Source: Clostridia bacterium (GTDB lineage: Bacteria; Bacillota; Clostridia; RGIG7378). Taken from it: a stretch of 41,300 bases of DNA. The translations under genes and the position numbers were made by a program. How positions within the stretch are numbered: the stretch's first letter is position 1; every line of letters starts with the position of its first letter. Of the stretch, positions 9,760-41,007 are shown in pieces. Location of the stretch: the NCBI GenBank assembly GCA_017501105.1, contig JAFVXO010000105.1, forward strand, positions 1 to 41,300, written 5' to 3'. A model generated the notes under the pieces. That model was not told the DNA's origin. It saw only the letters and a program-made list of their open reading frames with translations, and ran no database searches.

Positions 9760-9796
9760 GTAGAGATAGGTTTTCACCACCGGAACTTTAAGGCTC

Positions 9797-9850: not shown

Positions 9851-9912
9851 TACTTGAGAATGTAATAATGTGATGATATTATAGAAAATGGATTATTGGA
9901 AGAAATTATTCC

Positions 9913-9940: not shown

Positions 9941-9977
9941 AGAGTTAGATGCGGGATGTTACAGGAGATAATGCAGT

Positions 9978-11797: not shown

Positions 11798-11798
11798 A

Positions 11799-13699: not shown

Positions 13700-13714
13700 A
13701 AAAAGGATTAATAT

Positions 13715-14839: not shown

Positions 14840-14872
14840 GAGAATTGCCTCGACATTAGAGAGAAAAGATAA

Positions 14873-16072: not shown

Positions 16073-16074
16073 GA

Positions 16075-17370: not shown

Positions 17371-17372
17371 TT

Positions 17373-19756: not shown

Positions 19757-19771
19757 ATTGTAAGAGGATAT

Positions 19772-20986: not shown

Positions 20987-21082
20987 ACTACAAATTCATT
21001 TATGTCCATAAAGATCTGAGGAGCTCGCTCCGAAAGTTAAGGAGCTTGAGAGGAAACAAGACTATTATTTGTTGTAAGTTGC

Positions 21083-21111
21083 TTTAGTGGACACCGGTAG
21101 TGTATTATAAT
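21083..21111 (+). promoter_or_regulatory. candidate promoter of the cpsC-cpsD-cpsB module
   Basis: A perfect -10 box TATAAT (21106-21111) lies 17 bases after a weak -35 (TTTAGT, 21083-21088) and 49 bases before the cpsC-like ATG. The surrounding gap, 20987-21160, otherwise has only a short GGAGC/GCTCC hairpin (21020-21031) and no gene. Confidence 0.55.
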
Positions 21112-21160
21112 ATGAGAATGCGGATAGTTATATTATTGATTGTTATGAGGCTTTGTTTAT

Positions 21161-21892: not shown

Positions 21893-21893
21893 T

Positions 21894-22679
21894 ATGAGAT
21901 TGACTGCTGATATAAAGTCGAAAATCAAGAGCGGGCATAGCGTCAGTTCCCGGTTCGTTAAGGATTCTTGCACTAAGTTGTTGGGCGATACAACTCCTTT
22001 TGCAGTGCAAGAGGCCTATAAGGTCATCCGTACCAGACTATCCTTTACGTCTAAGGGAGAGAAGTGCCCTATTTACGTTATAACCAGCTCTAGCCCGGGA
22101 GAGGGCAAGACTCTTACCTCACTTAACATTGCTATTTCTTTTTCGGAAATTGGGAAAAAAGTTTTGCTTATCGACGGAGATATGCGTAACCCCACATGTC
22201 ACAAATTTCTGGATACTCGCAGGGAAAATGGACTTTCTGAACTTTTGGCGGGTATTTCAGAGACAGTTAATGTTAGAAAAACCAAGTATGACAACTTGTT
22301 CTTTATGGCTGCAGGAAGCATCCCACCAAACCCTGCTGAACTTCTGGCTTCCAGTAAAATGAATGACCTTATTCATTTTCTTAAGGAACACTTTGATTAT
22401 ATATTGATGGATACTCCTCCGATTGGGATTGTTACAGATGCATCTCTTCTTTCTGATGCTGCTACAGGTTTTATTATTGTAGCAAAAAGTAATGCATCCA
22501 GAGTTCCAGAGGTTCAGGCTGCAGTAGGTGCGATTCGGGCCGTCGGTGGGAGAATTTGTGGCTTTGTTCTTAACGGAATTGGTGGCAAGGGTTCTGAGTA
22601 CTATAAGTCCGGTAATTCATATGGCTATTCTTATTACTATGGTAAAGACGCAGAACTTATTATTAGCAAGGATAAGTAA
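21894..22679 (+). CDS. CpsD/YwqD-like bacterial tyrosine kinase
   Basis: Cytoplasmic BY-kinase, 261 residues. The Walker A is SSSPGEGKTLTSLN, Walker A' is VLLIDGDMRNP, and Walker B is ILMDTPPIG. The C-terminus has a tyrosine cluster (YYKSGNSYGYSYYYGKD), the autophosphorylation site of such kinases. A strong AGGAGG inside the end of cpsC precedes ATG 21894. In Gram-positive capsule systems the kinase is separate from its membrane activator, as here, and its phosphorylation cycle modulates polymerisation and wall attachment. The stop overlaps the next start (TAATG), coupling it to its phosphatase. Confidence 0.93.
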   Translation: MRLTADIKSKIKSGHSVSSRFVKDSCTKLLGDTTPFAVQEAYKVIRTRLSFTSKGEKCPIYVITSSSPGEGKTLTSLNIAISFSEIGKKVLLIDGDMRNPTCHKFLDTRRENGLSELLAGISETVNVRKTKYDNLFFMAAGSIPPNPAELLASSKMNDLIHFLKEHFDYILMDTPPIGIVTDASLLSDAATGFIIVAKSNASRVPEVQAAVGAIRAVGGRICGFVLNGIGGKGSEYYKSGNSYGYSYYYGKDAELIISKDK

Positions 22680-23353
22680 TGCTTATTGATTTCCATAGTC
22701 ATATTTTACCAAGAGCAGATCATGGTAGTGATAGTTTAGCTACTTCTCTTAAACAGTTAGAATTAGCAAAAGCGGCAAGAGTAGGCACGGTTGTGGCTAC
22801 CCCTCACTTTTATCCACATAAAATGACACTGGAGTCTTTTTTGGACAGGCGTAATAAGTGTCATTCAAAATTGGCAGAGGCATATGACGGCCCTGTAAAT
22901 ATTAGGGTTGGAGCCGAGGTGATGGTTTGCAGAGGCCTTGAGCGTATGGAGGGACTTGAACAGCTTTGTGTTGATTCTACTAATGTGCTTCTTCTGGAGA
23001 TGCCGTCCGGCAAGTGGAGCAACAGCTTAATTGATACAGTTATAGAGCTAGACGACGATCCGCGATTTAATGTGGTATTGGCTCATATAGACAGGTACGA
23101 TATTTCCTGGGTTAAGCCTTTGATTGACTATGGTATTAATTGCCAGATCAATGCGGTGGCCATGGTCAAGCTGTTTTCCCGTAAAAAATATCTCAACTTA
23201 ATTGACCGGGGATCAGTTGTAGCCTTGGGAAGTGATATTCACGGTACAGAAGTTGGGTATAAGCATTATACTGCGGCTGTAAGATATATGGGAGACAGGA
23301 CTGCTGTGGTAATGAATAGAACAGCAAGACTAATAGGGGGCAGTTATAGGTAA
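22679..23353 (+). CDS. CpsB/YwqE-like PHP-domain tyrosine phosphatase
   Basis: Metal-dependent phosphatase of 224 residues that reverses phosphorylation of the CpsD-type kinase. The N-terminal metal ligands are in IDFHSHILPRADHGSDS (H6, H8 and the following Asp/His). Further ligands are in VATPHFYPH, VGAEVMV, LAHIDRYD and LGSDIHG near the C-terminus. This motif order is that of the PHP/CpsB family. Overlap with the kinase gene (TAATG) and position at the end of the cpsC-cpsD-cpsB set support the role. Nothing anomalous is visible apart from a slightly shorter length than some homologues (about 240-255). Confidence 0.92.
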   Translation: MLIDFHSHILPRADHGSDSLATSLKQLELAKAARVGTVVATPHFYPHKMTLESFLDRRNKCHSKLAEAYDGPVNIRVGAEVMVCRGLERMEGLEQLCVDSTNVLLLEMPSGKWSNSLIDTVIELDDDPRFNVVLAHIDRYDISWVKPLIDYGINCQINAVAMVKLFSRKKYLNLIDRGSVVALGSDIHGTEVGYKHYTAAVRYMGDRTAVVMNRTARLIGGSYR

Positions 23354-25645: not shown

Positions 25646-27103
25646 GTGGATCAACAGTGGAAGAGAGTTGAATATGAGACCTGGGATGCAGCCTTTAAGG
25701 GACTGGTTCCTTTGGTTCGTCAACAGTCTGTGCGTGTTGCTGCCTATGCACGAGAATTGTATGTGCATGCCTATAGTTTGTCCTTTGCCCGCAAGTTTGA
25801 GGGACAAGAACGTATCCATGGTAGGTACGCAGATGTGGCTTACAAGTGTGGTATGTACCATCAGCTAGGCAAGGCTTTGGTTCCACCGGAGTACCAGCTG
25901 TGGCAGGAGGACGTTAAGGAAGAGGAGGAGCAACTCTACAAAAAATATACCAGTGATGGACGCATTTTAGTTTCCACGCTGCAGGTTAGAGGGGCCAAGT
26001 CACGCTTTTGGAAAAAGGAAGCTTTTGAAGAGCAGCCAACAGAAAATATTCCTTGGCTTATGATTCGCGAGAGCTGTCAGCAGCACATGGAACGATGGGA
26101 TGGCAGCGGCTATCCTGATGGACGAAAGGCGGAGGAGATTAGCCCAATTGCTCAAATTGTCGGCTTGGCCAGAGAGCTGGATGTCCTGGCATCAGGTACC
26201 GTATCAGAGACTCCTTTTGATGAGGCTTTTGCCATGCTTTGCAGCCAGGAGGGTACTCTCTGGAATCCCGAACTTATTCAGGTGCTAAAGGCAGCAGAGG
26301 CAAGTTGCCGCGAGGTATACAACAAATATATCCATTACACCTTGACCTTGCCAAAGACCATTACACTGGTGGAGAGGTCTGCGGATCGCTCCATGGGGTT
26401 GTCTTACAGGGCAATACAGGATTCGATGGATGGTCATATTTGGGGCTACGAGGCGACACCTTGGTTCTCCGGCATAGCAAATAGACCTGGAGAGATAGAA
26501 AGGCTTGATGATGTGGCATCTATGCTAAAGTCCACAGACATAGCAAATGATGTAGCCAATTACTTTATGTACGAGGCTGCAGATACCATTTTGAGAATGG
26601 GTAATTGCAGGCTGGATACAAATAAGGTATTGCTTAAAGTTCCTAATGAGTTGTATACTCAAGGTAGTAAGCTTAAGGAATTCAACCAGTTATTTGAGGA
26701 TCAACCTATCGAAAAGGATAATCTCCTGCTTTTGATACCGGAGCAGCTTGTCAAGAACGCCAACAAGGGAGTGAGGGAGGTCATAGCACGATATGTGCGC
26801 AATGGCATAGTTTTGGTTATGGACCAGTTCCACCCAGAGGCGTGGGAGCCGGAGGAGCTTAAGGAGACGGCCATTTCGTATCTGCGTTTATCCCCTGATG
26901 TTGCAATGGATGCTGATACAGCAGAATCCATCGAGATTCTTAAGACATGGGGCTTTACTATTTTGGCCACCGGTGTTGACTCCCAGGAAATGAGGGATTG
27001 GATGTTCCACAATGGCGTTGCGGGGCTGTCTGGACCTATAACAGGTAACATCATTACGGAGGATGAACTCATCAGAGACGGTATTATGAGGCAACAGCAA
27101 TGA
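25646..27103 (+). CDS. degenerate HD-GYP plus EAL-like protein (probable inactive c-di-GMP-related sensor)
   Basis: 485 residues, soluble. The N-terminal half matches HD-GYP: HQLGK (72-76) replaces the usual His-Asp-Ile-Gly-Lys, so the metal-binding Asp is Gln73. HMERWDGSGYPDG (147-159) keeps the GYP signature. The C-terminal half resembles EAL: GYEATPWF (267-274) for the Glu-Ala-Leu motif, MDQF (392-395) for the Asp-Asp-Phe motif, and ATGVDSQE near the end. Several catalytic residues of both halves are lost, so it is probably a c-di-GMP-binding or scaffold protein rather than an enzyme. GTG 25646 is the start, after GAGGAAA. Its location in a surface locus suggests control of assembly. Both family calls are from motif reading. 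Confidence 0.72.
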   Translation: MDQQWKRVEYETWDAAFKGLVPLVRQQSVRVAAYARELYVHAYSLSFARKFEGQERIHGRYADVAYKCGMYHQLGKALVPPEYQLWQEDVKEEEEQLYKKYTSDGRILVSTLQVRGAKSRFWKKEAFEEQPTENIPWLMIRESCQQHMERWDGSGYPDGRKAEEISPIAQIVGLARELDVLASGTVSETPFDEAFAMLCSQEGTLWNPELIQVLKAAEASCREVYNKYIHYTLTLPKTITLVERSADRSMGLSYRAIQDSMDGHIWGYEATPWFSGIANRPGEIERLDDVASMLKSTDIANDVANYFMYEAADTILRMGNCRLDTNKVLLKVPNELYTQGSKLKEFNQLFEDQPIEKDNLLLLIPEQLVKNANKGVREVIARYVRNGIVLVMDQFHPEAWEPEELKETAISYLRLSPDVAMDADTAESIEILKTWGFTILATGVDSQEMRDWMFHNGVAGLSGPITGNIITEDELIRDGIMRQQQ

Positions 27104-28200
27104 GTACTCCCAAGCAGGCTGGTGTAGATAGAGAGCCAAGGTGGAAACTCTTTCGCAAGACCAGGGGCGGCGTAGTATTGACACGGGCCGAGGTCAAGGA
27201 AATCCGTAAGGGCCGAAAAAAACTCCGTAAGGAGATGAAGGAACGCAAAATTTACAGTAAGTATGAGTTTGAGGCAATGGCCTCGGCTCTCGGACTGTAT
27301 TTTGATAAAAAAAAGGGACTTCTGTTTTTGTTGTTTAGCGGAGGTCGCGGAATATGGGTATTGTTGGGAGCAGCACTCTTGACTGTATTGGCATTGTTCG
27401 CAATGGCCACTGTTAGCCAGATGAGAGGATACTTTACTATCAACTTGTCGGACAAGATGTACACACAGGGGTTTGTGCTTAGTGAGACTGAGGATTTTAG
27501 CAATCCAACCAGTTATCTCTTTACGGAACCGCGAGAGGTTATATGTGTTTCTCTTTCGGATATTCCTGGAGACGTTGATGAGGGTGAGGGGTTGCATGAA
27601 AGTTCTGAGTTCTTTGCATACACTCACTATGTTAGAAACGAGGGCCATATGACTGCCAGCTATACTTGGCGGTTAAAGATAACGGGAGAGAGCCAGGGTT
27701 TATCTGATGCCGTTTGGGTTATGGTCATTGAGGACGGAAAAATGAGCTTGTTTGCCAAGGCTCATGCCGACGGAACATTGCAGACGCTGCCGGCGTTAGA
27801 TGATAATTCCAGAGGCTACATAGATATTCCCGTTATGGCGCTGGCTGATAATGCAGACGATTACCTGCAACCCATCAGGACTGTGGGCAGCGTGACATAT
27901 AACCGCGTTATCACAAAGTCCTTTGAGGAGGCCTACCAGGTGACGTCCGGAATACAGACAGAGGTGCATCCTGGAGAGGTACACAAATACACCGTTGTTA
28001 TGTGGTTGGAGGGCGATGATCCGGAATGTGTCGACCAGTTAATCGGAGGCCATATGGGAGTCACTATGGCATATACCATGGTGGATGAAGAGGATGAGGA
28101 GGAAACCTTCTGGGAGACTCTGTGGGATCGTCTGAACTTCTGGGAGAAGGAGGACTTTGAACACTTCTGGCAAAATATCTGGAACTCCTTGAGATTTTAG
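27100..28200 (+). CDS. single-pass membrane protein with WLEG-x-D-x-x-C motif and Trp-rich tail
   Basis: 366 residues, no recognised family. Residues 1-80 are cytoplasmic and strongly basic (KEIRKGRKKLRKEMKERK). Residues about 84-106 form the membrane helix, and the remainder should be outside. Near the C-terminus is WLEGDDPEC (302-310), a motif shared with the proteins at 31139 and 36477. After an acidic run, the last 30 residues carry five Trp and several Phe on a charged background, suggesting an amphipathic or docking helix. The start overlaps the previous stop (ATGA), linking it to the c-di-GMP-like protein. It may be a membrane-side platform for the surface proteins. Confidence 0.72.
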   Translation: MSTPKQAGVDREPRWKLFRKTRGGVVLTRAEVKEIRKGRKKLRKEMKERKIYSKYEFEAMASALGLYFDKKKGLLFLLFSGGRGIWVLLGAALLTVLALFAMATVSQMRGYFTINLSDKMYTQGFVLSETEDFSNPTSYLFTEPREVICVSLSDIPGDVDEGEGLHESSEFFAYTHYVRNEGHMTASYTWRLKITGESQGLSDAVWVMVIEDGKMSLFAKAHADGTLQTLPALDDNSRGYIDIPVMALADNADDYLQPIRTVGSVTYNRVITKSFEEAYQVTSGIQTEVHPGEVHKYTVVMWLEGDDPECVDQLIGGHMGVTMAYTMVDEEDEEETFWETLWDRLNFWEKEDFEHFWQNIWNSLRF

Positions 28201-28312: not shown

Positions 28313-30913
28313 ATGTACAAGCAAACAACTGAATACAAATCAATTCAGAAAAAGCTGGTAACTGCAGTTGCAATGGTTCTGGTGGCATGTATCATGGTGG
28401 TCTCCACATCTTACGCCTGGTTCACATTGTCTACAGCTCCTGAGGTTACAGGTATCACCACATCTGTCGGTGCTAACGGTAACCTGGAGATGGCTTTGCG
28501 TACGGGTAAATTATTGGATGATATAGAGACGACCATAGGCGCTACATATCCAACAGCAAATAACTCCTGGGGCAACCTGGTAGATCTCAGCGATGCCAGC
28601 TACATGCTTAGCGCCGTTGCTTTGCAGCCTGCTCGATTGAATATCACTCTCGATACAGAGAAGAGCAAGTATAGCGATGAGACTTCATACACTGTAAAGT
28701 CTGATACAATTAACCCTAAATGGGTAAAAGATGCAGTTTATGAGCCCGATGGAGCTAAAATTACAAGAGTTAGCTACACAGCATATGACGCATCAGACAA
28801 GGCTTTGCAAGAGGGAACTACAGAAGGTGTTTCGTATTACATGTACGAGATTACAACAGCGTACAGGTCCTTGATCCAGCCTGCATACAAGTTGGCAAGC
28901 AAAGCATATCTGCAGACTCCCATTTATGATATTAATGGTCAGCCTCAGGGTCTGGATGCTGCTAATGTTATTAATGGTACGTATAACCCAAGTGCCAACG
29001 GCTTTGTTGAAGCTGCATTGAATAATACTTTCGGCGTCAGAGCAGTTGGTACATCCAGCCAGATGTCTCCCGCAGAGATGGCTCTCCGTGCAGCTAAGCA
29101 GACTGTTAGCTCTACAATTACATCTGCCAAGACTGAGGCAGCCACATCTTTGCGCGTTGACTCTGTAGAGTTGGCCAGCATTATCATCAACCAGTATGTT
29201 TCTACAACCCCTACATTCTCTCAGGCAGATGTTACAACAATTGAAACAGCTATTGCTAACCTGCAGTCAATTGCTGCAGAGCTTGAGAGTGCTCTTGATG
29301 CTGCAGTTAAAGCAGTTGGTGTTGCTCAGAACATAGCAGTAAGTGGTAAAATCACTGTTGATGGCGATAAAATTACTGCCACAGGTGATGGCAAGACTGT
29401 TTCCTGGACAGGGCTGGAGACATTGGAGACAGCTCTTGTAGAGGCATATAACGTTGTGTCCGGTATGACAACAACTCTTGACAGCGCATCTAATGGATTG
29501 CCTACTGGAGAAACAGTTACTTGGGAGCAGATATCTGCAGCAATGAGCTCCTTGATGACAACAACTGATATTAGAGTTATCGACAGCAAGTCCGGTGCTG
29601 AATATACAGTTGAAGCTCTTAAGGCTTTGCCCTTGATGAATGCCGCTTCAATTCTGATGGGCACTCCCACAATCTCTATTGTAGATGGCGTTTATGCAGA
29701 CGTTGCCAGCCTTACTGGAAACTTCTCCGCATCCACATCTATGACAGTTAATGTTGAGTATAACGGCATCGACCTTAAGGACACGCCTGTCGATATCGTT
29801 ATGGCAACAGCAGTTGCTGAGTCAACAGTGGTGGGTACCTCTGGATTCTATCTGCCTATGATTCTTAGCCAGCTGTCCAGCGTTAGTGTTTCTGGCACAG
29901 AGGGCGAAGAGAACACAGCCCAGACAGTTATCACAGATATCTATGGCTATGTTATCGACCTTGCATTCCGTACAAACGCGGCCGGCTCCAGCTTGTTGCT
30001 CCAGACAGATGCTGTTGATCGTGTAGACGAGAGCTATGGCGATGATTCCCTCACAAAGGGTCACGGCAGCTACATGGAGTTCAAGTCCGGTCACCCCGAC
30101 TTTACCCTTAAGCAGGTAGCAGCCCTTATGGGTAGCGTCCGCGTTGTATTCCTTAACGACGAGGGCAACATCTTTGGTGTAGCAGCTCTCGACGTAAGCG
30201 ATGAGTTGGTAGATGTTCTTGGCGAGGATAATCTACCTGTTACATACGATCCCACACTTCATGGCTTCTATAGAACAGAAACAGTGAATGGTGAGGAAGT
30301 AAAATATGCACAGCAGCTCAAGGCAGGCACTATCGAATTTAAAGGTGATGCTCCTTATGTTCGCGCTGAGTTGGCTCTCTACGGCTTCGAGGTTTCTGAT
30401 GAGGGTATCTTGAAAAAGGGAGACAAACTTTCCTCCGATGTTATTACAACTCTTGACCAGAATATCGCCAAGGCAGTTTCTACTCTCGTTTACTTGGATG
30501 GTGATACTGTTGAGAACAAGGATGTTGCTATTTCCGGCGACTCTATGACTGGTTCCATGAACTTGCAGTTCGCAAGCTCTGCAGAGCTCGATCCCATGGA
30601 TTACACATTTACAAATGACAAGCTTGCAGCTCCCAAGGTAGAGTTTAAGGATGGCAAACTGGTTATCACAAATGTAGACAAAGCAGCATCTTACCAGATC
30701 ACATATGGTACAGTTCTTGACTACACAGTTAATGCAACTGCTGGTGAGACCACAGAGATTAATGTAAGTGAGATTGTCGGAACGAATAATAATGTTCCTG
30801 AGAACATTTCCCTTATGATCCAGGTTGTTGCAAATCCAGATGCTGGTTCACAGCTTAAGGCATCCAACAAGACAAACGTACAGATTATATATACTAAGCC
30901 TGTACAGCCGTAA
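28313..30913 (+). CDS. large surface/filament-type protein with SipW-cognate-like N-terminus
   Basis: 866 residues. Basic N-terminus, hydrophobic segment 15-34, then TSYAWFTLSTAPEVTGI (32-48) and ANGNLEMAL. This resembles the N-termini of proteins processed by SipW-type peptidases in Firmicutes. The mature part is Ala/Thr/Ser/Val-rich with alternating helical and beta stretches and is cysteine-free. Its end (about 765-866) looks like a small beta domain of fibronectin III type. No LPxTG sorting motif or C-terminal membrane segment exists, so any attachment must be by polymerisation or binding. AAAGGAAG precedes ATG 28313. Its size and flanking structured DNA suggest it is the major product of the locus. 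Function beyond surface structure is unknown. Confidence 0.78.
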   Translation: MYKQTTEYKSIQKKLVTAVAMVLVACIMVVSTSYAWFTLSTAPEVTGITTSVGANGNLEMALRTGKLLDDIETTIGATYPTANNSWGNLVDLSDASYMLSAVALQPARLNITLDTEKSKYSDETSYTVKSDTINPKWVKDAVYEPDGAKITRVSYTAYDASDKALQEGTTEGVSYYMYEITTAYRSLIQPAYKLASKAYLQTPIYDINGQPQGLDAANVINGTYNPSANGFVEAALNNTFGVRAVGTSSQMSPAEMALRAAKQTVSSTITSAKTEAATSLRVDSVELASIIINQYVSTTPTFSQADVTTIETAIANLQSIAAELESALDAAVKAVGVAQNIAVSGKITVDGDKITATGDGKTVSWTGLETLETALVEAYNVVSGMTTTLDSASNGLPTGETVTWEQISAAMSSLMTTTDIRVIDSKSGAEYTVEALKALPLMNAASILMGTPTISIVDGVYADVASLTGNFSASTSMTVNVEYNGIDLKDTPVDIVMATAVAESTVVGTSGFYLPMILSQLSSVSVSGTEGEENTAQTVITDIYGYVIDLAFRTNAAGSSLLLQTDAVDRVDESYGDDSLTKGHGSYMEFKSGHPDFTLKQVAALMGSVRVVFLNDEGNIFGVAALDVSDELVDVLGEDNLPVTYDPTLHGFYRTETVNGEEVKYAQQLKAGTIEFKGDAPYVRAELALYGFEVSDEGILKKGDKLSSDVITTLDQNIAKAVSTLVYLDGDTVENKDVAISGDSMTGSMNLQFASSAELDPMDYTFTNDKLAAPKVEFKDGKLVITNVDKAASYQITYGTVLDYTVNATAGETTEINVSEIVGTNNNVPENISLMIQVVANPDAGSQLKASNKTNVQIIYTKPVQP

Positions 30914-31138: not shown

Positions 31139-32140
31139 GTGAAAAATCAAGTTAAAAAAAAGCGTAAGCCCTTTATGATTCTAGTTTATTGGGTGATGGT
31201 AATGACTTTGTTTTCACTACTAGTTACGGCCACATATACCTGGTTCTCAATCAGCAGAACACCTAAGGTGGGCAACATGGGACTCCATGTAAATGCGCCG
31301 GCTGGGTTGTCACTATCTACAGAGCCGGAGGGGGCAGAGTGGGTGCAACAGGTAAATGTAGCCGACCTGATTGGAGAGACGACTCCATTGAGACCAGTCA
31401 CCTGGTCAGAAAAGGACCAATGCTTTTACGCAGTTGTGTATGGGATAAATGGCCAACCCACCGGACAATATATTAAGCTGTCGGACAACACAAATGCCAA
31501 CAGGAGTGACATATATGGATACTACATTAAGTTTACCTTGTATGCCACAGCTGAGACCAATGTGAAGGTAAGGCTGACAGAGGCCATGGAGCTTAATGAC
31601 GGCAGGGATGGTGCAGGGACATATTTGATTGGTTCTCCCATATGGGATAGGGAACAGATACTCCACAGCGATGGTGGAAACGGAGCCCAAAATGCAATCC
31701 GCGTCGGATTTAAATTTACACCTTTGTCAGACGGAGAGGAGCAGTCGACAGGGAGCCAGTTCTTTATATATGAACCAAACAGCGACAGTCATGTGTCAGG
31801 AGAACAGGGCTATGTGGATACGCCCAGTATTGATGGAACCAGCACTCTGGTGCCCTCGGACAAACTCATTCCACAGACAGCCACAACGTGGACTGAGGCT
31901 GATGTGGTGGAAAGATCGGTGGTGATTAAGGAAATGGGTGATTTCCTGACAGATACCAATCTTATTAGTATTAAGGCACATGAAGTTGTTAAGGTCGATG
32001 TTTATCTGTGGCTGGAGGGACAGGATGCAGATTGCAAAGATTTGGGTACAAAAGAGACGCAAATTATGGCAAATATTCAGTTTTATGCAGACACGGAAGG
32101 TCAATCCGGAATGCAGCCGATTACTGATGATATAGATTGA
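31139..32140 (+). CDS. surface protein with SipW-cognate-like N-terminus and WLEG-x-D-x-x-C motif
   Basis: 333 residues. Positively charged start (KKKRKP), hydrophobic 12-33, then TYTWFSIS (32-39), the counterpart of the Ala-Trp-Phe motif in the preceding surface protein. The exported part is beta-rich. WLEGQDADC (291-299) near the end matches WLEGDDPEC and WLEGQDVDC in two other proteins of this locus, so they form one family. No sorting signal or C-terminal anchor is seen. The start is GTG 31139 with GGGAG 7 bases upstream. A minor subunit or cap/adaptor of the same structure as the large protein is a reasonable inference. Confidence 0.75.
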   Translation: MKNQVKKKRKPFMILVYWVMVMTLFSLLVTATYTWFSISRTPKVGNMGLHVNAPAGLSLSTEPEGAEWVQQVNVADLIGETTPLRPVTWSEKDQCFYAVVYGINGQPTGQYIKLSDNTNANRSDIYGYYIKFTLYATAETNVKVRLTEAMELNDGRDGAGTYLIGSPIWDREQILHSDGGNGAQNAIRVGFKFTPLSDGEEQSTGSQFFIYEPNSDSHVSGEQGYVDTPSIDGTSTLVPSDKLIPQTATTWTEADVVERSVVIKEMGDFLTDTNLISIKAHEVVKVDVYLWLEGQDADCKDLGTKETQIMANIQFYADTEGQSGMQPITDDID

Positions 32141-32214: not shown

Positions 32215-32994
32215 ATGAGCAAGAGGAACACCGAAGCGACAGAACAGAAAAAGGTCAGCAAGGGTACTGGACGAAAGATTGCTAATATTGTAGTTAACGT
32301 TTTACTTGTTGTTGCACTTGTAGTTGTTGCAATCTGCACTTATGTATCATTTGTCTCAGCATCGGGTAATGGAGTCCCCAGCGTGTTTGGTATTGAGTTT
32401 TTCTCGATTCAGACAGACTCAATGTCACCATTTCTGGAACCCGGAGACTTGGCAATTGGTATTGAGGTAAAGGACAAGAAGGAACTTAAGGCTAAGGACG
32501 TTATTACATACTGGACTGTTATAAACGGAGAGCGTGTACTTAATACTCACCGTATTGAGACAGTTTATGACGGTGGTAACATCAGAATCTTCGAGACCAA
32601 GGGAGATAACAGCAACTCTGCAGACCCAATGACAGTCCATGAGAACCAGGTTGTGGGCAAGTACTTGTTCAAGATTCCTCGTGTAGGTAAGGTGTTTGAT
32701 TACCTGCAAACTTCTACAGGATTCCTTGTAGTTATTGTTATTCCTGTATTCCTGTTCTTCCTATATCATCTGGTACAGTTCTTCCGCGTGCTGTTTGAGT
32801 ATCAGAATGTCAAGAATCGTCTTCGTTACGAAGAGGAGAGAGGACGTGCTGAGGATGTTATCGAGGAGCATCAAAAACAGCAGGACGAGGCCAGAGCCCA
32901 ATTGGAGGCCCAGCTAAGGGAGCAGTTAAAGGCTGAGCTCTTGGCGGATATGGCTAAAAATCAGCAGACAGGGGAAGTTGTCTCCCAAGAGTAA
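32215..32994 (+). CDS. sipW: SipW-type (ER/archaeal-like) signal peptidase I with coiled-coil tail, copy 1
   Basis: 259 residues. Membrane helix about 22-47, then the catalytic domain: TDSMSPFLEPGD holds the nucleophile Ser69. NTHRI holds His112, the general base used instead of the Lys of ordinary bacterial signal peptidases. TKGDNSNSAD supplies the acidic residue (Asp131 or Asp137). A second membrane helix lies at about 173-195, and a charged coiled coil (about 200-250) follows, predicted to be cytoplasmic. SipW peptidases process a special class of surface substrates such as TasA in Bacillus. The neighbouring Ala-Trp-Phe-type surface proteins are the obvious candidates. AAAGGAA precedes ATG 32215. 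The coiled-coil tail is an unusual addition. Confidence 0.9.
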   Translation: MSKRNTEATEQKKVSKGTGRKIANIVVNVLLVVALVVVAICTYVSFVSASGNGVPSVFGIEFFSIQTDSMSPFLEPGDLAIGIEVKDKKELKAKDVITYWTVINGERVLNTHRIETVYDGGNIRIFETKGDNSNSADPMTVHENQVVGKYLFKIPRVGKVFDYLQTSTGFLVVIVIPVFLFFLYHLVQFFRVLFEYQNVKNRLRYEEERGRAEDVIEEHQKQQDEARAQLEAQLREQLKAELLADMAKNQQTGEVVSQE

Positions 32995-33052: not shown

Positions 33053-34651
33053 GTGGATAATTTTTTAAAGTACTTTTTTCAAGATTTCGGTCGGGTATTA
33101 AGGGCTTTTTTTGAAATATTCGCTGCCATTTTCAATTTTCTTAATTATCTCCTAAATTTTCCCATGAGGATGGAGATTATTAAGTCATATGAGGAGAACT
33201 TTACAACAACAGATTGGATTCTGTTGTTACTTGCCAACATAGCGTTAATTGTTGTGCTGGTTATTGCCGGTATTTTCTTGACGAAGCTTTTAAGACGCAT
33301 ATTTAGGTTCCGTATTCCTGTTAAAGAGTACGACAATATGGTTAAGCAGGTTCGTACTCTGCAAAGGGACCTGATGCGGGCAAATTACGAAAAGGACAAG
33401 TTATTGGCCATGCGTCTTGCCGAGCTGGGTGGCAGTACAGAGGACATGCAGCATCTTATTGATGAGCCCGGTGAGTCAGAGGAAGGCGAGAATGGAGAAA
33501 CTCCCGGCGAGGAGGTCCAGTCTATTGGAGAGCGTAATACATTTGAGTCACCAATTGTAGACCCATCCACCAGTAGGTTCTTCAGACTTACCTCGGTAGA
33601 TAATTACTACAAGACTAGTTATATACCTCCGGTATACGAGAAGGATGTCACCCTTGAGGAGTTTTGTGTCCGCTTCAGAGCCTTTGCTGCATCTAAGCTG
33701 AGATTGTACTATGAAATAGATATGATCCGCTATTTTGTTGCTGCAATGGGTACGGCTCGTATCATCATTTTGCAGGGTATTTCCGGTACAGGTAAGACCA
33801 GCTTGCCATATGCTTTTGGTAAGTTTGTTCAAAAGGATACCTCATTGGTTTCTGTTCAGCCCTCATGGCGTGAGCGTACTGAGTTGTATGGGTATTACAA
33901 TGAGTTTACGAAAAAGTATTCCGAGACAGACTTCCTCCGTGCCATTTATGAGGCTAATTATTACAGAGATCCTCATATTCTGATTTTGGACGAGATGAAT
34001 ATTGCTCGTGTAGAGTACTATTTCGCTGAAATGCTCTCTATTCTGGAAATGCCCCTTGTAGAGGAGTGGAAGGTAGATATCGTTACTGCAACCTGGGATA
34101 ATGATCCTTGTTTGATTAATAACGGTACTGTTCAGATTCCCGACAATGTGTGGTTTGTTGGAACTATTAACAACGACGACTCCACATTTGCCGTAGCTGA
34201 TAAGGTATATGACCGTGCTATTCCAATCGACTTGGATAGTAGAGCAGAACCCTTTGAGTGCGACCCTCTGCCTCCGATTAACATCTCTACAGACAGGCTA
34301 TCGGAGTTGTTTGCAGAGGCTAAGGAAAAGTATCCCCTTAGCAAGGAGATGGAGGATAAGATGGAGGTGCTTAATGGATACCTTATTAAGAACTTCCGAT
34401 TGGCATTTGGTAACCGTGTTATCAAGCAGATCAGAGATTTTGTTCCCTGTCTTATTGCTTGTGGAGGAACAGAGATTCAGGCCGTTGACTTTATTATTGC
34501 AAAGAAGGTTTTGCGCAAATTTGAATCCTTGAGCCTCGGCTTTATGAAGGATGACCTGGCAAGATTTAACCAGTATCTTGACAAGCTGTTTGGAAAGAAC
34601 ACCATGGAAATCTGCAAGAACTATGTTGAATTGTTGAGAAAGAATAACTAG
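33053..34651 (+). CDS. membrane-anchored McrB-like AAA+ NTPase
   Basis: 532 residues. An N-terminal amphipathic region (1-36) and one strong membrane helix (about 54-79) precede a coiled coil (90-125) and an acidic linker (136-160). The AAA+ domain follows, with Walker A GISGTGKTS (242-250), SWRERTELYGYYNEF (271-285), Walker B ILILDEMNIARV (309-320), sensor 1 GTINNDDST (370-378) and the arginine finger region VYDRAIPIDLD (385-395). These place it in the McrB branch of AAA+ proteins. McrB is normally a soluble restriction motor, but this one is tied to the membrane and sits between signal peptidase and surface-protein genes. It probably energises assembly, extraction or gating of the surface complex. 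Nucleotide preference (ATP or GTP) is unclear. Confidence 0.87.
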   Translation: MDNFLKYFFQDFGRVLRAFFEIFAAIFNFLNYLLNFPMRMEIIKSYEENFTTTDWILLLLANIALIVVLVIAGIFLTKLLRRIFRFRIPVKEYDNMVKQVRTLQRDLMRANYEKDKLLAMRLAELGGSTEDMQHLIDEPGESEEGENGETPGEEVQSIGERNTFESPIVDPSTSRFFRLTSVDNYYKTSYIPPVYEKDVTLEEFCVRFRAFAASKLRLYYEIDMIRYFVAAMGTARIIILQGISGTGKTSLPYAFGKFVQKDTSLVSVQPSWRERTELYGYYNEFTKKYSETDFLRAIYEANYYRDPHILILDEMNIARVEYYFAEMLSILEMPLVEEWKVDIVTATWDNDPCLINNGTVQIPDNVWFVGTINNDDSTFAVADKVYDRAIPIDLDSRAEPFECDPLPPINISTDRLSELFAEAKEKYPLSKEMEDKMEVLNGYLIKNFRLAFGNRVIKQIRDFVPCLIACGGTEIQAVDFIIAKKVLRKFESLSLGFMKDDLARFNQYLDKLFGKNTMEICKNYVELLRKNN

Positions 34652-34673
34652 TTGTTATCGTAGGAGATCTGCT

Positions 34674-36473
34674 ATGGCTTCAGATAAAAAGAATAAGGCG
34701 ACAATGATGGAGCCACTGGCCTTAGTGGATCCTGTATATCAAAAGTTTGTAAAAGGTATACTCCGTGCTATTGGTAGCACGGACTTTTACACCTATTTCA
34801 TGCGTTCCATTGCCGGTGCAGACAATCAGATACAGTTTTCCAATCGTAAGATGATCAAAACTGTAGATGTTACATGGGTAGATACCATAGAGGATTCGCT
34901 GGAGGCGTTCCAGACAATTATTAACGCTCCTCGTAACGTCATTAAGGAAGAGGAACTGATTGTTAATGTTGCCAATGCCAAAAAGACGGGCACAGAGGTG
35001 GTGCAGCATTTGGCACAACATTCAAATCTTGTAGAGGATTTTAATTATGATACAGGTGATGTGCGTCCGTCCAGGCTTATGCAAAGATACAGGGAGGATA
35101 GTACAGAGCTTTACGAAAACAAGATTGTATTTACAGCCCTGGAATCAGCTTACCAGTTTGTAAAGATCAGACATGATGCTCTTTTCTCTGCCATGAGCGA
35201 CGAGTTTGGCGCTAAGCTTAAGGTTCAGTCCAATATGGATAGTGCCACAGAACACGTTCATCTGGATATGTTTCTGCATATAAAACAGGTAGAAAATTTA
35301 TTAGATACAGATGAGCGAAATTCCGAAATATTCGGCAGAATTTCCCGCATGCATCGTATTTTGGGCATGTTCATGAATACGGATTTTGCAGAGAGAATGA
35401 GCAAGCTGTCTCGTGTTAAGGGCACTATTGTTAAGACTAACGTACTCAAGAAGAACCCTAACTACCGTCACATTGTGGAACTCTTTGAGTTTTTGCACAA
35501 TTATAACGAAATTGGTTATAGCATCAATGTTATTGAACAGAATCCCGAGGTAAACGACACTCTGCAGAGAGACATCTATCACAATATCCTGTTTAACTAT
35601 TTGGTTCTGAAGGGGTACTTACAGGACGAAGAGGATAGGCAAGTATCTGTGTCCTCAAGGGGTAAAAAGCGTACGCTTAAGCCCAAGTTCATCAAGGAAA
35701 TAATTGAGGAACTGACTGAGGACTATGATTTGCCGGATGTGGAAATTCACAAGGTCCTCATCGAGGAATTGACCAAAACTGATTTGATGAAGGAGGAGTC
35801 TGCTGAGAGACACCGCCTGGTAGAGGAGCAGCGTCAGAGAAAGAAGGCTGAGGAGGAACGAATCCGCCAGGAAAAAGCTGCCGAGAAGGAGAGACTCCGG
35901 CAGGAAAAGGAGGCAGAGAAGGAACGCCTTCGTATAGAAAAGGAAAAGGAAGAGCAAAGATTGCTGCAGGAGCGCATGGAGTTAGAGATCGAGATGCGCA
36001 GACGCAGTGCTTTGTTCAAGAAGGACCTGGCCAATTTTGCAGAAAATCTTCGAGAGCGGTTAGAGGAAAGAGTAAACCAACAAAGTAAGGAAGAGCAGAT
36101 TCTGGAGAGACTGGATTATTCAGAGGCTGTCATCCTTCTTGAGGAGGAGGAAACTCGTCGCAGAGAGGCTAATGCAAGACTCCGAAAGCAACGCCAAATT
36201 GAAAAGGAAATGCGTCGCCAAGAGGAGGAGCGTGAGCGTATCCGTCAAGAGCAGGAGGCTGAGCGTGCAAGGGCAGAGGCTGAAGAGCAGGAGCGCATAG
36301 CTATGGAGAGACAGCGCGAAAAGGACATGGTGGCTCTCAAACCTGTTATCCTGGAGCTGGAACGTTTTGCAGAGTATAGAGGAACCCAGAAACTAGAGCG
36401 TATCATGGAGCAGCAGAGGCAGCAGGCTGCATTGGAAAAGCGTAGATTATCTGCTCAATCAAAGAGGGGATAG
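34674..36473 (+). CDS. DUF2357-like partner protein with long charged coiled coil, no nuclease domain
   Basis: 599 residues, soluble. Residues about 130-310 contain LMQRYREDSTELYENKIV followed by a conserved aromatic helix, and VLKKNPNYRHIVELFEFL (257-274). These are the pattern of DUF2357-type proteins that partner McrB-like AAA+ ATPases. Those proteins often end in a PD-(D/E)xK nuclease; here no such motif is seen. Instead, from about 375 to the end there is a very long Glu/Lys/Arg/Gln-rich coiled coil with imperfect repeats such as EKERLRQEKEAEKERLRIE. It follows the AAA+ gene by 22 bases with GTAGGAGA upstream. I infer a structural or adaptor partner of the motor, not a nuclease. The DUF2357 call is by recollection of the motif. 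Confidence 0.72.
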   Translation: MASDKKNKATMMEPLALVDPVYQKFVKGILRAIGSTDFYTYFMRSIAGADNQIQFSNRKMIKTVDVTWVDTIEDSLEAFQTIINAPRNVIKEEELIVNVANAKKTGTEVVQHLAQHSNLVEDFNYDTGDVRPSRLMQRYREDSTELYENKIVFTALESAYQFVKIRHDALFSAMSDEFGAKLKVQSNMDSATEHVHLDMFLHIKQVENLLDTDERNSEIFGRISRMHRILGMFMNTDFAERMSKLSRVKGTIVKTNVLKKNPNYRHIVELFEFLHNYNEIGYSINVIEQNPEVNDTLQRDIYHNILFNYLVLKGYLQDEEDRQVSVSSRGKKRTLKPKFIKEIIEELTEDYDLPDVEIHKVLIEELTKTDLMKEESAERHRLVEEQRQRKKAEEERIRQEKAAEKERLRQEKEAEKERLRIEKEKEEQRLLQERMELEIEMRRRSALFKKDLANFAENLRERLEERVNQQSKEEQILERLDYSEAVILLEEEETRRREANARLRKQRQIEKEMRRQEEERERIRQEQEAERARAEAEEQERIAMERQREKDMVALKPVILELERFAEYRGTQKLERIMEQQRQQAALEKRRLSAQSKRG

Positions 36474-36476
36474 GAT

Positions 36477-37841
36477 ATGAAGAAATATACCAAATTGGTT
36501 GTTGCCCTTGTCCTCTTGGTCACAGCTTCTGTTATGGTTGTTATGACATCCTTTGCATGGCTCACTATATCTCAAAATCCAGTGGTACAGGGCATTCAGG
36601 TTACAATCAGCGGTTCCCACACGGTTCTGGTTGCACCGGATGTGTCGTATGAGAGGGATGGACAGGTATTTCACTTTCCCGGGGAGTTTTCAGATAAATT
36701 GAGTTTTGATCAACAGGATAGGTATGCTTACCTTAAGGATGTTGCCGGACTAGTGCCAGTATCTACTGTGGATGGTGAAAATTGGTACATTCCTGATTAT
36801 TACGATGCGAATGATCATGAGGTGCTCGAAGGAAATGCGTATGCTGGACAGATAAAACCAACAAGTGATTTCTTCCTGGATAATATGTTGTTTTATTCTA
36901 ACTTGACATCAAACCAGGGGGAGATGCTCCAACAGGGCAACTATGTTTACATAGACTTTTGGGTAGTTGCTCCAGTTGATGGATATAAACTCAGAGTTTC
37001 TGCAGGAGACCAGTCTGCCGCCGGAACCTATGTGATAGACCTGATGAAACCCGAGGAGATTTCTGTAGGCGATTCTGTAACATATGAGCTGACTAAGGTT
37101 AACCAGCAGGCGTCCTCCAGCATGAGATTGGGATTTTTAGTGAATCACGATACTCTGGTGGATGACAGCATGTTGCTGTATACAGAGAGTCAGCATTATA
37201 AAAGCAGTTATTCCAGTCTACAGGGCGTTTATGCAGAGCCGGGATACAGTGCATTAAATAGTGCACAGACAAAATTTATAATATTCGAGCCAAATGGCGA
37301 TGTACATCCGGAGGTGGTGTATGATTCTAATGGCAATCGAATACTAAATGGCCAATATGTTCAGACAGAGCCTCTTGGCGAAGGTGGATTACCTTTCAGC
37401 ATACAAGATAGGTTAACTGTTCAGTTGGCAAATAGTTGGATAATGGCAGATGGTGAATTGTTCATAACCCAGATGTTTCGAACTTTTATGGCGGGGAGAG
37501 ATATATCAGGGGAGACGGCTTTGTCCTTAAATAACAAATTTATGACAGAGTATCTACAGTATCAGATTCACCCATATATAGCTAAGGGCAATTTTGTCTC
37601 AAATACCGAGAATCTTTACAAGGTTGCAGGTGCAGACAAGGTTTTGATGGCAGAAGAGATAGCAGACCTTAACCAGGGAGGCGCAACAGAGGATGTGTTC
37701 CTTACACAGTTGACGGGCGGAGTGCCGCAGCGAATCAGAATGTTCGTTTGGCTAGAGGGCCAGGATGTGGATTGTATTAATTCTGCATCTACAGGAAGTT
37801 TTGCTATCAGTGTAGAGTTGGCAGGCAGCAATGCAAGATAA
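36477..37841 (+). CDS. surface protein, SipW-cognate-like N-terminus, C-terminal WLEG-x-D-x-x-C
   Basis: 454 residues. Basic start, hydrophobic 6-24, then TSFAWLTISQNPVVQGI (24-40), closely matching the N-terminus of the 866-residue protein. The exported part is beta-rich with many Tyr, Asp and Gly. WLEGQDVDC (425-433) lies near the end, as in the proteins at 27100 and 31139, followed by a short strand-like tail. No anchor is visible. The start is 3 bases after the DUF2357-like stop, so this surface protein is translated from the same message as the AAA+ motor. GGGGATAGGA serves as Shine-Dalgarno. Likely a subunit of the same surface structure. Confidence 0.77.
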   Translation: MKKYTKLVVALVLLVTASVMVVMTSFAWLTISQNPVVQGIQVTISGSHTVLVAPDVSYERDGQVFHFPGEFSDKLSFDQQDRYAYLKDVAGLVPVSTVDGENWYIPDYYDANDHEVLEGNAYAGQIKPTSDFFLDNMLFYSNLTSNQGEMLQQGNYVYIDFWVVAPVDGYKLRVSAGDQSAAGTYVIDLMKPEEISVGDSVTYELTKVNQQASSSMRLGFLVNHDTLVDDSMLLYTESQHYKSSYSSLQGVYAEPGYSALNSAQTKFIIFEPNGDVHPEVVYDSNGNRILNGQYVQTEPLGEGGLPFSIQDRLTVQLANSWIMADGELFITQMFRTFMAGRDISGETALSLNNKFMTEYLQYQIHPYIAKGNFVSNTENLYKVAGADKVLMAEEIADLNQGGATEDVFLTQLTGGVPQRIRMFVWLEGQDVDCINSASTGSFAISVELAGSNAR

Positions 37842-37864: not shown

Positions 37865-38587
37865 ATGCGTTTAAGCAATATATGGAAAAAATTAGGCTCC
37901 TGGTTATCTACAGTTGCACTGATGGTTTCTATAATCATATGCGCGACTGTTATTGTACAGGTGAGCACTAATGGATATGTAGAAATAGGCGGGTACAGTC
38001 TGTTCAAGATTGTTACAGGCAGCATGGGAGAAACGATCCCAGAGGGTTCGATAATTCTATGTTGTGAGACAGAAATTGAGGACATAGAGGTGGGGGATAT
38101 AGTATGCTTCCTATCTGAAAATCCTCAAATAATGGGGAAGGTCGTCACGCACAGGGTCGCAAGTATTGCTGTTGCAGATGACGGTTTGATCCAATTGGAA
38201 ACTAAGGGGGATGCCAATTTAACAGCCGATAGGGAGTCAGTTACAGAGAAAAATTTAATTGGCAAGGTTTATGGCTATGAGAAGGACAAAAATGTTATGT
38301 TGATGTTAGTTGATGTGTTAACTGATAAGATTGGATTTTTGATTTTAATCCTATTTCCAACGTTGTTTATTGCCGGATTTGTATTGCGTGTCTGCATGAA
38401 GAATATGCAAAGGGAAATTGAAAAGGCAATCGACGAAGAAAAGAAGATAAAAGAGGCACAGCTGTATTCTCCGGAGGAATATGCTGCCATGCTGCAACGT
38501 ATTAAGGACGAGGTTACACAGGAACTGGAGGAGACCGTTGAGGAAGGTAATGCAAAGACTACTGCAGAGGAGTCAAAAACAGAATAA
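37865..38587 (+). CDS. sipW: SipW-type signal peptidase I with coiled-coil tail, copy 2
   Basis: 240 residues, same plan as copy 1 but clearly diverged. Helix about 12-33; the catalytic serine is Ser53 in TGSMGETIPEGS. His96 is in VTHRV, and TKGDANLTAD supplies Asp116 or Asp122. A second helix lies at about 157-177, and a charged coiled-coil tail (about 180-225) follows. The use of His rather than Lys marks it as ER/SipW-type. It lies between two surface-protein genes and overlaps the following one. Two peptidases in one locus suggest division of labour among substrates. AGAAAGGAAATA precedes ATG 37865. Confidence 0.88.
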   Translation: MRLSNIWKKLGSWLSTVALMVSIIICATVIVQVSTNGYVEIGGYSLFKIVTGSMGETIPEGSIILCCETEIEDIEVGDIVCFLSENPQIMGKVVTHRVASIAVADDGLIQLETKGDANLTADRESVTEKNLIGKVYGYEKDKNVMLMLVDVLTDKIGFLILILFPTLFIAGFVLRVCMKNMQREIEKAIDEEKKIKEAQLYSPEEYAAMLQRIKDEVTQELEETVEEGNAKTTAEESKTE

Positions 38588-40478
38588 GGCATTACAGACT
38601 ATTCATAAAAGGGTTTTAATCCATGCAGGAATAGCGTTGTGGACAATTATTGTTACTATAGCACTCATATTTGGTATGAGTGCTGCTTGGTATACAAATG
38701 TTCTGCAGACGTCAGGATTGCAGTTCCAGGCAGAGGCATGGGGATTTAACGGGAAGGTATTGGTAACAGATGCTCCAACGGAGGCTGGGCCCGGCGATAC
38801 AGGAATAGTAGGCCTGACCGTGACAAATTCCAGTGACGACCTTCTATATGTGGCCGTCAATTTGTCAAAGACTCAGATGACGGTTCCAATGCAGCAGAGA
38901 CTATATTTTTATGTGGATATTGCCACAGAGAGCAACGGAGAAAGTCTGGACAGAGTATATATTAATACACAAAAAAGCTACACTTACTCACTGTTGGCAC
39001 ATAGTGAACTGGTTTTAACAGAAAAACGCTCTAACGATGCCATGCTCAAATGGCAGTGGGTATACGATATGGAGGGCTATTATTTCCTGGGATCCTTGAT
39101 GGAGACAACGGATTCTGCCGGGAATGTTACAGTTGTTCCTACAGTAGAGGACTATCTGCGCCCTGTTGAGTACGATTTGGATACAGCTATATTTTCCGAT
39201 GGCTTTTTGACGGAGGCCAATGGCAAGCCTTTGGATCAGTTTGTAAAGGAATTGTCTGAGACCGATGGTTATGCCGGAGACATAACACCCGGCCAGTGGC
39301 AGGGATATTACAAAGTGGATGTTGATGAAAACGGATATGGCATATGGATGTATATCTGTAATTGGGCCGAGATACAGCAGGCCACCATATATGACACGCA
39401 ATTGGGAAAGACCGCAGCACAGGCAATAGAAAATGGAACGGAGAGGGAGAACTATCTTGCCCGATTAACATTTACCGGACAGGTTTCCCACAATGATTTC
39501 AAAGAGGTTTCAACAGCTGAAGAGTTTATAGCGGCACTTAATGAAGGGGGAATGATCAAGCTCAGCCATGGACTGGAGTTGTCAGAGCCTATTGTCGTAA
39601 ATGGGGGCGCAAAGGCTGTGGTTGATCTGGCAGGCTGCACCATTACGGGCCCATCAAATAATTCTACTCTGGTTATAAACGACGGTTCAGAGCTGATGGT
39701 TATGAATGGTTCTCTGGTAGGCACTGATGGCACTCAAGATGTAATTACGGTCAGTGGAAGTTCTCTTACATTAAGCGGAGTAAATATTACGGGAGAATCT
39801 GATGATGCTATCTATGTTGTAGACCAAGGCAGTTCGGTGGATTCCTGTGTGAGAATATTCAATAGCGAAATCACTGCATCCAGCTGTGCCGTGTACATGA
39901 GGGGAAATGGCTCATCGCAAGATGGATACACTCAGGTAATTATCGAAAACAGCACTTTAACCAGTGATTATATGGCTGTGCTTGGAAATGGCACACAAAG
40001 GTATTGGGGAACTGATGTACAAATCTATCAGTCTACTATTCACGGCTACTACGCAGCAGTTTATCAGCCTCAGGGCGATAGTATTACAAGAATTACTGAG
40101 AGTACAGTCTCTGGCCTGACAGGTGTTGTAATTAAAGGAGGCGACCTGGTGGTTGCAGACAGCACCGTAATGGGAACCTCGGAGCAGCCTGAAAATCCGA
40201 CGTATCTCGGCAGTGGCTTTTCAGACACCGGTGACGGTATTTACATTGAATGTGGTTACGCCAATACAATTCATGTAACTGTAGAGGGAGAATTCTCTAA
40301 CATAATCAGCAAGAAGGCTCAGGCAGTAAGAGTTTTTGAGCCGGATAGTGTTTATGCCAATGTTTTCCTTAAGGGCGGGGCATATTCATCGGATGTAACA
40401 CATCTCTTGAGAGAGGGTTATTCCTATGACGCTTCTTCAGGCATCGTCAGTGCAGTGAAGGGAGCATCAAATGAATAA
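38550..40478 (+). CDS. surface protein with camelysin/TasA-like head and parallel beta-helix tail
   Basis: 642 residues from ATG 38550, which has GAGGAAGG close upstream and overlaps the peptidase gene by 38 bases; a longer frame from ATG 38481 would add a basic, non-helical extension and is less likely. Hydrophobic 24-46, then SAAWYTN (44-50). Residues about 56-130 contain QFQAEAWGFNG and GIVGLTVTNSSDD, reminiscent of camelysin/TasA-type domains. From about 317 to 630 there are repeated short strands and turns (for example SSLTLSGVNITGESDDAIYV) that fit a right-handed beta-helix like pectate-lyase-fold surface proteins. No LPxTG. It is probably an adhesin or fibre-tip-like element. Enzyme activity is not evident. 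Confidence 0.75.
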   Translation: MQRLLQRSQKQNKALQTIHKRVLIHAGIALWTIIVTIALIFGMSAAWYTNVLQTSGLQFQAEAWGFNGKVLVTDAPTEAGPGDTGIVGLTVTNSSDDLLYVAVNLSKTQMTVPMQQRLYFYVDIATESNGESLDRVYINTQKSYTYSLLAHSELVLTEKRSNDAMLKWQWVYDMEGYYFLGSLMETTDSAGNVTVVPTVEDYLRPVEYDLDTAIFSDGFLTEANGKPLDQFVKELSETDGYAGDITPGQWQGYYKVDVDENGYGIWMYICNWAEIQQATIYDTQLGKTAAQAIENGTERENYLARLTFTGQVSHNDFKEVSTAEEFIAALNEGGMIKLSHGLELSEPIVVNGGAKAVVDLAGCTITGPSNNSTLVINDGSELMVMNGSLVGTDGTQDVITVSGSSLTLSGVNITGESDDAIYVVDQGSSVDSCVRIFNSEITASSCAVYMRGNGSSQDGYTQVIIENSTLTSDYMAVLGNGTQRYWGTDVQIYQSTIHGYYAAVYQPQGDSITRITESTVSGLTGVVIKGGDLVVADSTVMGTSEQPENPTYLGSGFSDTGDGIYIECGYANTIHVTVEGEFSNIISKKAQAVRVFEPDSVYANVFLKGGAYSSDVTHLLREGYSYDASSGIVSAVKGASNE

Positions 40479-41007
40479 ATCACCAATTAAGAGGAATATA
40501 GCCTCAATCCTTGTTTTGGTGCTTGTGGTGCTCGTGATTGTCTATGCCGGTGTTGCATATGCCAGATATCTGGAGACGCTTGTTTTTAATCAAGAATTTG
40601 TTGCAAAACCTTTGGAACAGGTGGCTTTCGGGTCGAGCCAATGGCGAGTTAATGACAGGGAATCTGTTCTGGAATTTACGATGTCTGAGGAGTTGGAGGC
40701 CTGCAGAATATATATTGCGGTTTCTCAGGGAGTTAGCAACCCGGAGGCTCTGGAGATTTCTCTGAGTAAGCCAGGGGAGACCGAGGATAATACGTATATT
40801 GCAGTCCCTGAACCAATCGATAAAAGGACATCCCTTTATAAGATATTTGGTGAAGGCTATGTATTTAGGTTTTATGATGCAGAGACAGGAGAGGAGATAG
40901 AGTGGGAGTTTAATCCTCATGACACGTATACTATCTCTTTAAGTCAATTAGATGATGCAACAGAGTATCCAAGTCTGATCAGAGTATTTGTTGAGGAAAA
41001 CTATTAG
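40471..41007 (+). CDS. small surface protein with N-terminal hydrophobic segment
   Basis: 178 residues. A basic N-terminus (NKSPIKRN) is followed by hydrophobic 10-28 and AYARYLETL (29-37), a reduced version of the aromatic motif seen in the neighbouring surface proteins. The remaining about 140 residues are acidic and beta-rich. There is one cysteine and no anchor. The start overlaps the beta-helix protein stop by 8 bases, so the two are probably made together. No family recognised. A minor subunit, or a pilot for the beta-helix protein, is possible. Confidence 0.72.
   Translation: MNKSPIKRNIASILVLVLVVLVIVYAGVAYARYLETLVFNQEFVAKPLEQVAFGSSQWRVNDRESVLEFTMSEELEACRIYIAVSQGVSNPEALEISLSKPGETEDNTYIAVPEPIDKRTSLYKIFGEGYVFRFYDAETGEEIEWEFNPHDTYTISLSQLDDATEYPSLIRVFVEENY

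Follow-up and report, generated by a model that had tools for sequence, protein, structure and literature searches.

A membrane-anchored McrB-like AAA+ protein and a DUF2357 partner without a detectable nuclease in SipW-linked surface loci of Clostridia

Gene content of the surface locus

The window (i.e., the whole stretch of 41,300 nucleotides that was analyzed) carries a McrB-like AAA+ gene and its DUF2357 partner gene (34674..36473) in a region where all genes are on the + strand with short gaps between them (Table 1). Both open reading frames lie where a sequence-only reading of this DNA had placed them. The export and surface genes that it had described as neighbors are also present, including two SipW-type signal peptidases (genes 32215 and 37865) and several proteins with SipW-type signals.

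Table 1. Features of the AAA/DUF2357 locus and their coordinates in the window
Coordinates	Strand	Feature	Basis
25646..27103	+	HD_5 (HD-GYP-like) and EAL protein, cyclic-di-GMP-type regulator	Pfam HD_5 1.7e-15, EAL 4.7e-12
27100..28200	+	Membrane-anchored core protein, candidate fiber base or anchor	AF2 model, VIA-align, locus counts
28313..30913	+	Large surface protein, SipW-type signal VSTSYAWFTLS	Signal pattern
31139..32140	+	SipW-type substrate, VTATYTWFSIS signal, WLEGQDADC near C-terminus; TasA/camelysin-like candidate fiber subunit	Signal/motif patterns
32215..32994	+	SipW-type (archaeal/ER-type) signal peptidase 1	TIGR02228 83 bits, cut-off 51.85
33053..34651	+	TM-anchored McrB-like AAA+ NTPase, NxD signature (NNDDST)	Profile/PDB matches, alignment, RBS, homolog starts
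33218..33286	+	TM helix of AAA protein, residues 58-80 counted from TTG at 33047	Alignment
33776..33799	+	Walker A GISGTGKT, residues 244-251	Invariant in 16-row alignment
34169..34180	+	Sensor-1/signature motif NNDD, residues 375-378, NxD variant	Comparison with relatives
34674..35798	+	DUF2357 (McrC N-domain) core of partner	Pfam DUF2357 26.7 bits; VIA-align McrC matches
35799..36470	+	Charged coiled-coil tail of partner, 224 residues, no nuclease found	Composition, homolog comparison
36477..37841	+	SipW-type substrate, MTSFAWLTIS signal, WLEGQDVDC motif	Signal/motif patterns
37865..38587	+	SipW-type signal peptidase 2	TIGR02228 76 bits, cut-off 51.85
38481..40478	+	Surface protein, MSAAWYTN signal-like N-terminus, weak NosD-like match	BLAST homologs in 24 records
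40471..41007	+	Small predicted exported protein, same operon	ORF list, BLAST

Signal peptidase 1 carries a charged tail, about 60 residues long and predicted to be cytosolic, and its match to NF046067 (104.8 bits) is below the cut-off of 190. The NCBIfam SipW-substrate models have no match among the substrates in the window, and BLAST homologs of the 31139..32140 substrate were found in 52 records. The true start of the surface protein annotated from 38481 is probably downstream of this position. A pattern search for a hydrophobic stretch with an ensuing TYAWF-type site matched 84 of 798 unlabelled ORFs at SipW loci, compared with 0 of 169 at control loci. For the WLEGxDxxC motif, which is also carried by the family of the membrane-anchored protein encoded at 27100, the counts are 153/1262 and 0/203, respectively; because both patterns were drawn up after viewing the data, they describe these loci rather than test them.

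The AF2 model of the 27100 protein (pLDDT 89.5) has putatively cytosolic N-terminal helices, a TM segment at residues 83-107, and a predicted extracellular beta-sandwich at residues 113-332. The VIA-align matches of this ectodomain include the TasA fiber 8aur (Z 6.4), the archaeal bundling pilus 7ueg (Z 6.2), and a Sulfolobus filament (Z 5.8), tied with carbohydrate enzymes. The archaeal bundling pilus is also at Foldseek rank 3 for the model (E = 2.9e-3). The suggested resemblance to TasA and bundling pilins is a lead and not proof, given middling Z scores (5.8-6.4) that unrelated beta-sandwiches equal; these scores, below the level that would exclude a common arrangement, count against a fiber reading.

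The HD_5-EAL protein at the start of this region may be degenerate, because its EAL signature reads EAT and its HD motif reads HQLGK in the translation. BLAST homologs of the gene were found in 41 of 88 records. Rfam has no match in the window, and the only family that it matched beside six related loci was a fluoride riboswitch unrelated to them; known cyclic-di-GMP riboswitches are therefore absent from the window and these six loci. Directly upstream, positions 8495-23353 hold a polysaccharide-type cluster (a LytR-CpsA-Psr protein, a sugar transferase, glycosyltransferase-like ORFs, and a CpsD-type ATPase), which is followed by genes for a dockerin protein (23478) and a FIVAR protein (24473). 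A large protein-O-mannosyltransferase-like membrane protein (PMT; 3181-6489) could glycosylate surface proteins.

Anatomy of the AAA/DUF2357 pair

The AAA gene probably starts at the GTG at 33053, because AAAGGTGA is found upstream and in-register homologs begin with MDNF. The encoded protein consists of a hydrophobic N-terminus, a TM helix, a coiled-coil-like segment (residues ~95-125), a low-conservation linker, an RF..L..VD motif, and a McrB-like AAA+ domain. The TM helix, which the sequence-only reading had noticed in this protein, is conserved across 16 aligned relatives: residue 57 is Trp in all of them, and a hydrophobic run of about 22 residues comes after it. The alignment likewise shows no variation in the Walker A, Walker B, and DR motifs. 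No modified-DNA-binding domain was found in the Pfam search, and the N-terminus is occupied by the TM helix and coiled coil. By sequence, E. coli McrB (PDB 6hz4) is the closest solved structure (E = 3.7e-5). PADLOC PDC-M26A matches the protein at E = 6e-43, Pfam AAA_5 is just below its cut-off (21.1 bits and 22, respectively), and NF008457 matches 160 positions with a score far below its cut-off. The signature NNDDST is kept in all SipW-linked AAA relatives, and the pattern NxD[ED][ST]T is found in most other relatives but is absent from E. coli McrB in the motif comparison. The letters NNDD may also be read as NxxD, and it is the [ST]T context after them that supports the assignment to the NxD variant.

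The partner is a McrC homolog in its N-terminal half, which had gone unnoticed in the sequence-only reading. Residues 1-375 match DUF2357 (PF09823) above the Pfam cut-off of 23.3 bits, and the same domain is matched at E ≤ 1 in 58 of 59 partner homologs. Searched at full length, the partner had no useful Pfam match; DUF2357 showed only once the sequence was trimmed to the core. For the AlphaFold model (pLDDT 85), the top four VIA-align PDB matches are all McrC chains from E. coli and Thermococcus gammatolerans (Z 7.8-8.1; the next unrelated match has 5.9), and the overlap with E. coli McrC covers only its N-domain (residues ~34-190 of McrC). A Z score near 8 is modest alone, and the McrC identity is firmer because these four chains agree with the independent Pfam match. 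Foldseek alone placed McrC (6hz4_M) at rank 9 with E = 0.43, and sequence searches against PDB chains found no McrC.

The remainder of the partner is the charged coiled coil that had been recognized from sequence, with 53% charged residues and three Pro/Gly. The accompanying observation that the partner has no visible PD-(D/E)xK motif agrees with the results obtained here. Pfam searches of the core, fold comparison of the model, and the composition and conservation of the tail revealed no nuclease, including the PD-(D/E)xK nuclease of McrBC type IV restriction, and the homolog comparison found no well-conserved [DE]xK position in the tail. Among 77 homologs, the tails that follow the DUF2357 core are 16 to 634 residues long, with a median of 246; the long ones are about half charged. 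Ten of these homologs end 30 or fewer residues past the core; therefore, neither a nuclease nor a coiled coil is essential to this family. PADLOC has no match for the partner.

Conservation and phylogeny

In one genome scan, 80 named loci were found in Lachnospiraceae, Ruminococcaceae/Oscillospiraceae, and unclassified Clostridia. The recurrent gene order is HD or HD-EAL, a 27100-type anchored protein, a SipW-type substrate, SipW, AAA, DUF2357, a second SipW, further substrates, and a very large surface protein, and the order with SipW and fiber-type genes is kept across families. Among the 75 single-AAA loci with full flanks, most of which were gathered with SipW-linked queries, 73 have a SipW-type peptidase within about 6 kb of the AAA gene, 69 have a DUF2357 gene within 120 b of it, and 69 have a 27100-type gene within 8 kb upstream. 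Neither SipW-type peptidases nor TYAWF-type signals were found at the control loci. Because these 75 loci came from SipW-linked queries, an even draw of 391 genomes of the class was added; matches were obtained in 27 of them, and the scores fell into distinct steps. SipW was nearby in all 10 loci examined that had full-length matches, whereas the five tandem loci, locus L141, and the distant relatives lacked it. Of the 33 SipW-type peptidases that scored over the cut-off in 11 of these genomes, 25 are within 10 kb of the AAA gene, compared with about 0.3 expected by chance. The surface link of the AAA/DUF2357 pair is thus real. EAL, HD_5, HD, and GGDEF are the most frequent Pfam families among the neighbors of 11 SipW loci. 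A draw of 397 genomes from the phylum had no match at 1e-40 beyond the genome of the window itself. Furthermore, the only genus-mate genome compared lacks the AAA gene; the distribution of the locus is therefore patchy even between closely related genomes, and the AAA is dispensable.

The AAA phylogeny had been set as a check in the sequence-only reading. The AAA of the window is not nested in restriction McrB and groups with SipW-linked relatives from other families. In an unrooted tree of 54 AAA domains, the SipW-linked sequences form one group (85/84) and the tandem sequences form another (97/90), with E. coli McrB very far from both. When the longest branches were left out, the SipW-linked and tandem sequences together with L141 were split from other NxD relatives (98/98), and the SipW-linked group alone had 78/89. 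L141 (8519-10333) encodes an AAA protein with N-terminal hydrophobic segments beside an 834-residue DUF2357-type partner, and no SipW-type peptidase was found in its whole genome.

Distant AAA relatives are present in two phage-labelled contigs and 265 plasmids. SipW was neither annotated in those read in detail nor labelled where they were scanned, and the viral-contig scan found no relative. One of the phage-labelled contigs (MT835511, Bacteriophage sp. from human feces) encodes an 824-residue NxD AAA relative. Five plasmid loci from Deinococcus, cyanobacteria, and Burkholderiales share a conserved operon of a kinase, an AAA/helicase-type protein, a hypothetical protein, an NxD AAA, and DUF2357.

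Five loci (L127 and L137-L140) have the tandem form AAA-DUF2357-AAA, no SipW, and adjoining genes for large membrane-anchored repeat proteins. The AAA proteins of these loci are probably also TM-anchored, as judged from their hydrophobic N-termini. A transglutaminase core is found in the adjoining repeat proteins at four of the five loci (two by Pfam, with 2.9e-21 and 8.1e-22, and the remaining two by BLAST), and therefore the surface theme recurs without SipW. No published report of the AAA-DUF2357-AAA form was found in the one literature collection searched.

Relationship to known systems and possible functions

A passage of a few sentences, without experiments, in an eLife 2024 paper (PMC11090510) describes CoCoPALM as a group of NxD-type McrBC relatives that have an FtsB-like TM/coiled-coil region and a signal-peptidase link, together with a DUF2357 McrC homolog that usually has a coiled coil. 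As far as this description goes, the window has the same features: an NxD McrB-like AAA+ domain fused to a TM helix and coiled-coil-like segment, a DUF2357 partner with a coiled coil, and the signal peptidase link (73/75 loci). Because the class was named in 2024, the idea of exaptation is not new; in the literature searched, only this paper and its preprint were relevant for the term CoCoPALM. The present analysis adds the detailed anatomy, the range in Clostridia, the cyclic-di-GMP-type neighbors, and the sister AAA-DUF2357-AAA cassette with transglutaminase proteins, which lacks SipW, unlike CoCoPALM.

E. coli McrBC (type IV restriction) shares the McrB-like AAA+ domain and the McrC N-domain fold, but the pair in the window has no detectable nuclease or DNA-binding domain, has NxD rather than NxxD, carries a TM anchor, and resides in a surface operon. 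CoCoNuT shares the NxD motif, coiled coils, and DUF2357; the window differs in its membrane anchor and surface operon, and no HEPN or other nuclease is among the 25 most frequent neighbor families of 11 loci. For PADLOC PDC-M26, the AAA matches PDC-M26A, whereas the partner has no PADLOC match and the context is surface rather than defense. The Bacillus tapA-sipW-tasA operon also has a SipW-type peptidase beside likely substrates with aromatic residues at the cleavage region, whereas the window has SipW in two copies, along with several large substrates.

The near-constant clustering with SipW peptidases and fiber-type surface proteins in many gut Clostridia indicates that the pair probably helps build the cell surface. 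With its domain identities, lack of a detectable nuclease, membrane anchor, intact NTPase motifs, and conserved linkage established by computation, the pair is probably a CoCoPALM-type system, in which a membrane-anchored McrB-like AAA+ NTPase and a nuclease-less McrC-type activator form a motor exapted for the export or fiber assembly of SipW-processed surface proteins. The inferred hexamer, with its topology, NTP, coupling, and fiber product, may be outlined as follows. SipW-type peptidases would cut TYAWF-type signals off TasA/camelysin-like subunits, while the 27100 protein would remain in the membrane as a base or anchor. Beneath the membrane, an AAA hexamer would form via six TM helices, and the DUF2357 partner would enter this ring and, like McrC acting on McrB, stimulate NTP hydrolysis. 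The coiled coil of the partner and the cytosolic tail of the peptidase may couple the motor to the export site. Operon linkage alone cannot establish an action of the motor on the surface proteins, and no experimental test of the pair was found in the literature searched. To our knowledge, Bacillus makes TasA fibers without a McrB-like motor and has no AAA/DUF2357 pair, so such a motor is not needed in principle.

An active motor is favored because the NTPase motifs are strictly kept. This conservation argues against a regulatory or scaffold role, in which AAA/DUF2357 gates SipW or positions the export site on a signal such as cyclic di-GMP without powering export. Such a role is fairly unlikely. 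It is consistent with the HD_5-EAL gene that adjoins the operon, the presence of EAL, HD_5, and GGDEF among the most frequent neighbor families, the coiled coils on the partner and the peptidase tail, and the variable length of the partner tail; however, the EAL and HD motifs in the window look degenerate, and HD homologs are found in fewer than half of the records. Anti-phage defense, in which a nuclease-less McrBC relative posted at the membrane would sense infection or guard surface receptors while its genes lie hidden among surface genes, is improbable. The PDC-M26A match of the AAA, the kinase-helicase-AAA-DUF2357 operons of the nearest plasmid-borne relatives (which also match PDC-M26A), and the patchy distribution would fit this explanation. 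However, the match is not specific, because PDC-M26A covers a broad set of NxD relatives. Moreover, no nuclease is found in the partner, PADLOC families had at most one match each among the neighbors of 11 SipW loci, no nuclease is among the 25 most frequent neighbor families of these loci, and the SipW/fiber-type gene order is kept across families. Of the two possibilities raised in the sequence-only reading, exaptation is supported and a hidden defense island is not. Neither of the results that this reading had named as refutations was obtained, given that the partner showed no nuclease fold and the AAA groups with SipW-linked relatives outside restriction McrB.

A chance neighborhood, or a restriction system in decay that was left next to surface genes, has a negligible probability. 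The lack of a nuclease in the partner is the sole point in its favor, and both genes and their neighbors are conserved over many families, the catalytic motifs are invariant, and the AAA domains form a separate phylogenetic group. This explanation is ruled out by the SipW linkage in nearly all loci.

More broadly, membrane-anchored NxD McrB/DUF2357 pairs may constitute a general class of Clostridia motors for extracellular protein export or assembly, with at least two forms (SipW/TasA-like, and AAA-DUF2357-AAA with transglutaminase proteins), a DNA-restriction motor having been recruited for the cell surface; the chances of this generalization are about even. If the motor reading of the window is true, a DNA-restriction motor drives or controls the building of surface fibers in common gut bacteria. 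McrBC would thereby have acquired a second role, and Gram-positive fiber assembly would have a new source of energy. Defense-finding libraries (e.g., PADLOC PDC-M26A) would then assign an anti-phage label to genes that serve the surface. The idea can be tested in cultured carriers, including Ruminococcus bicirculans and R. albus.
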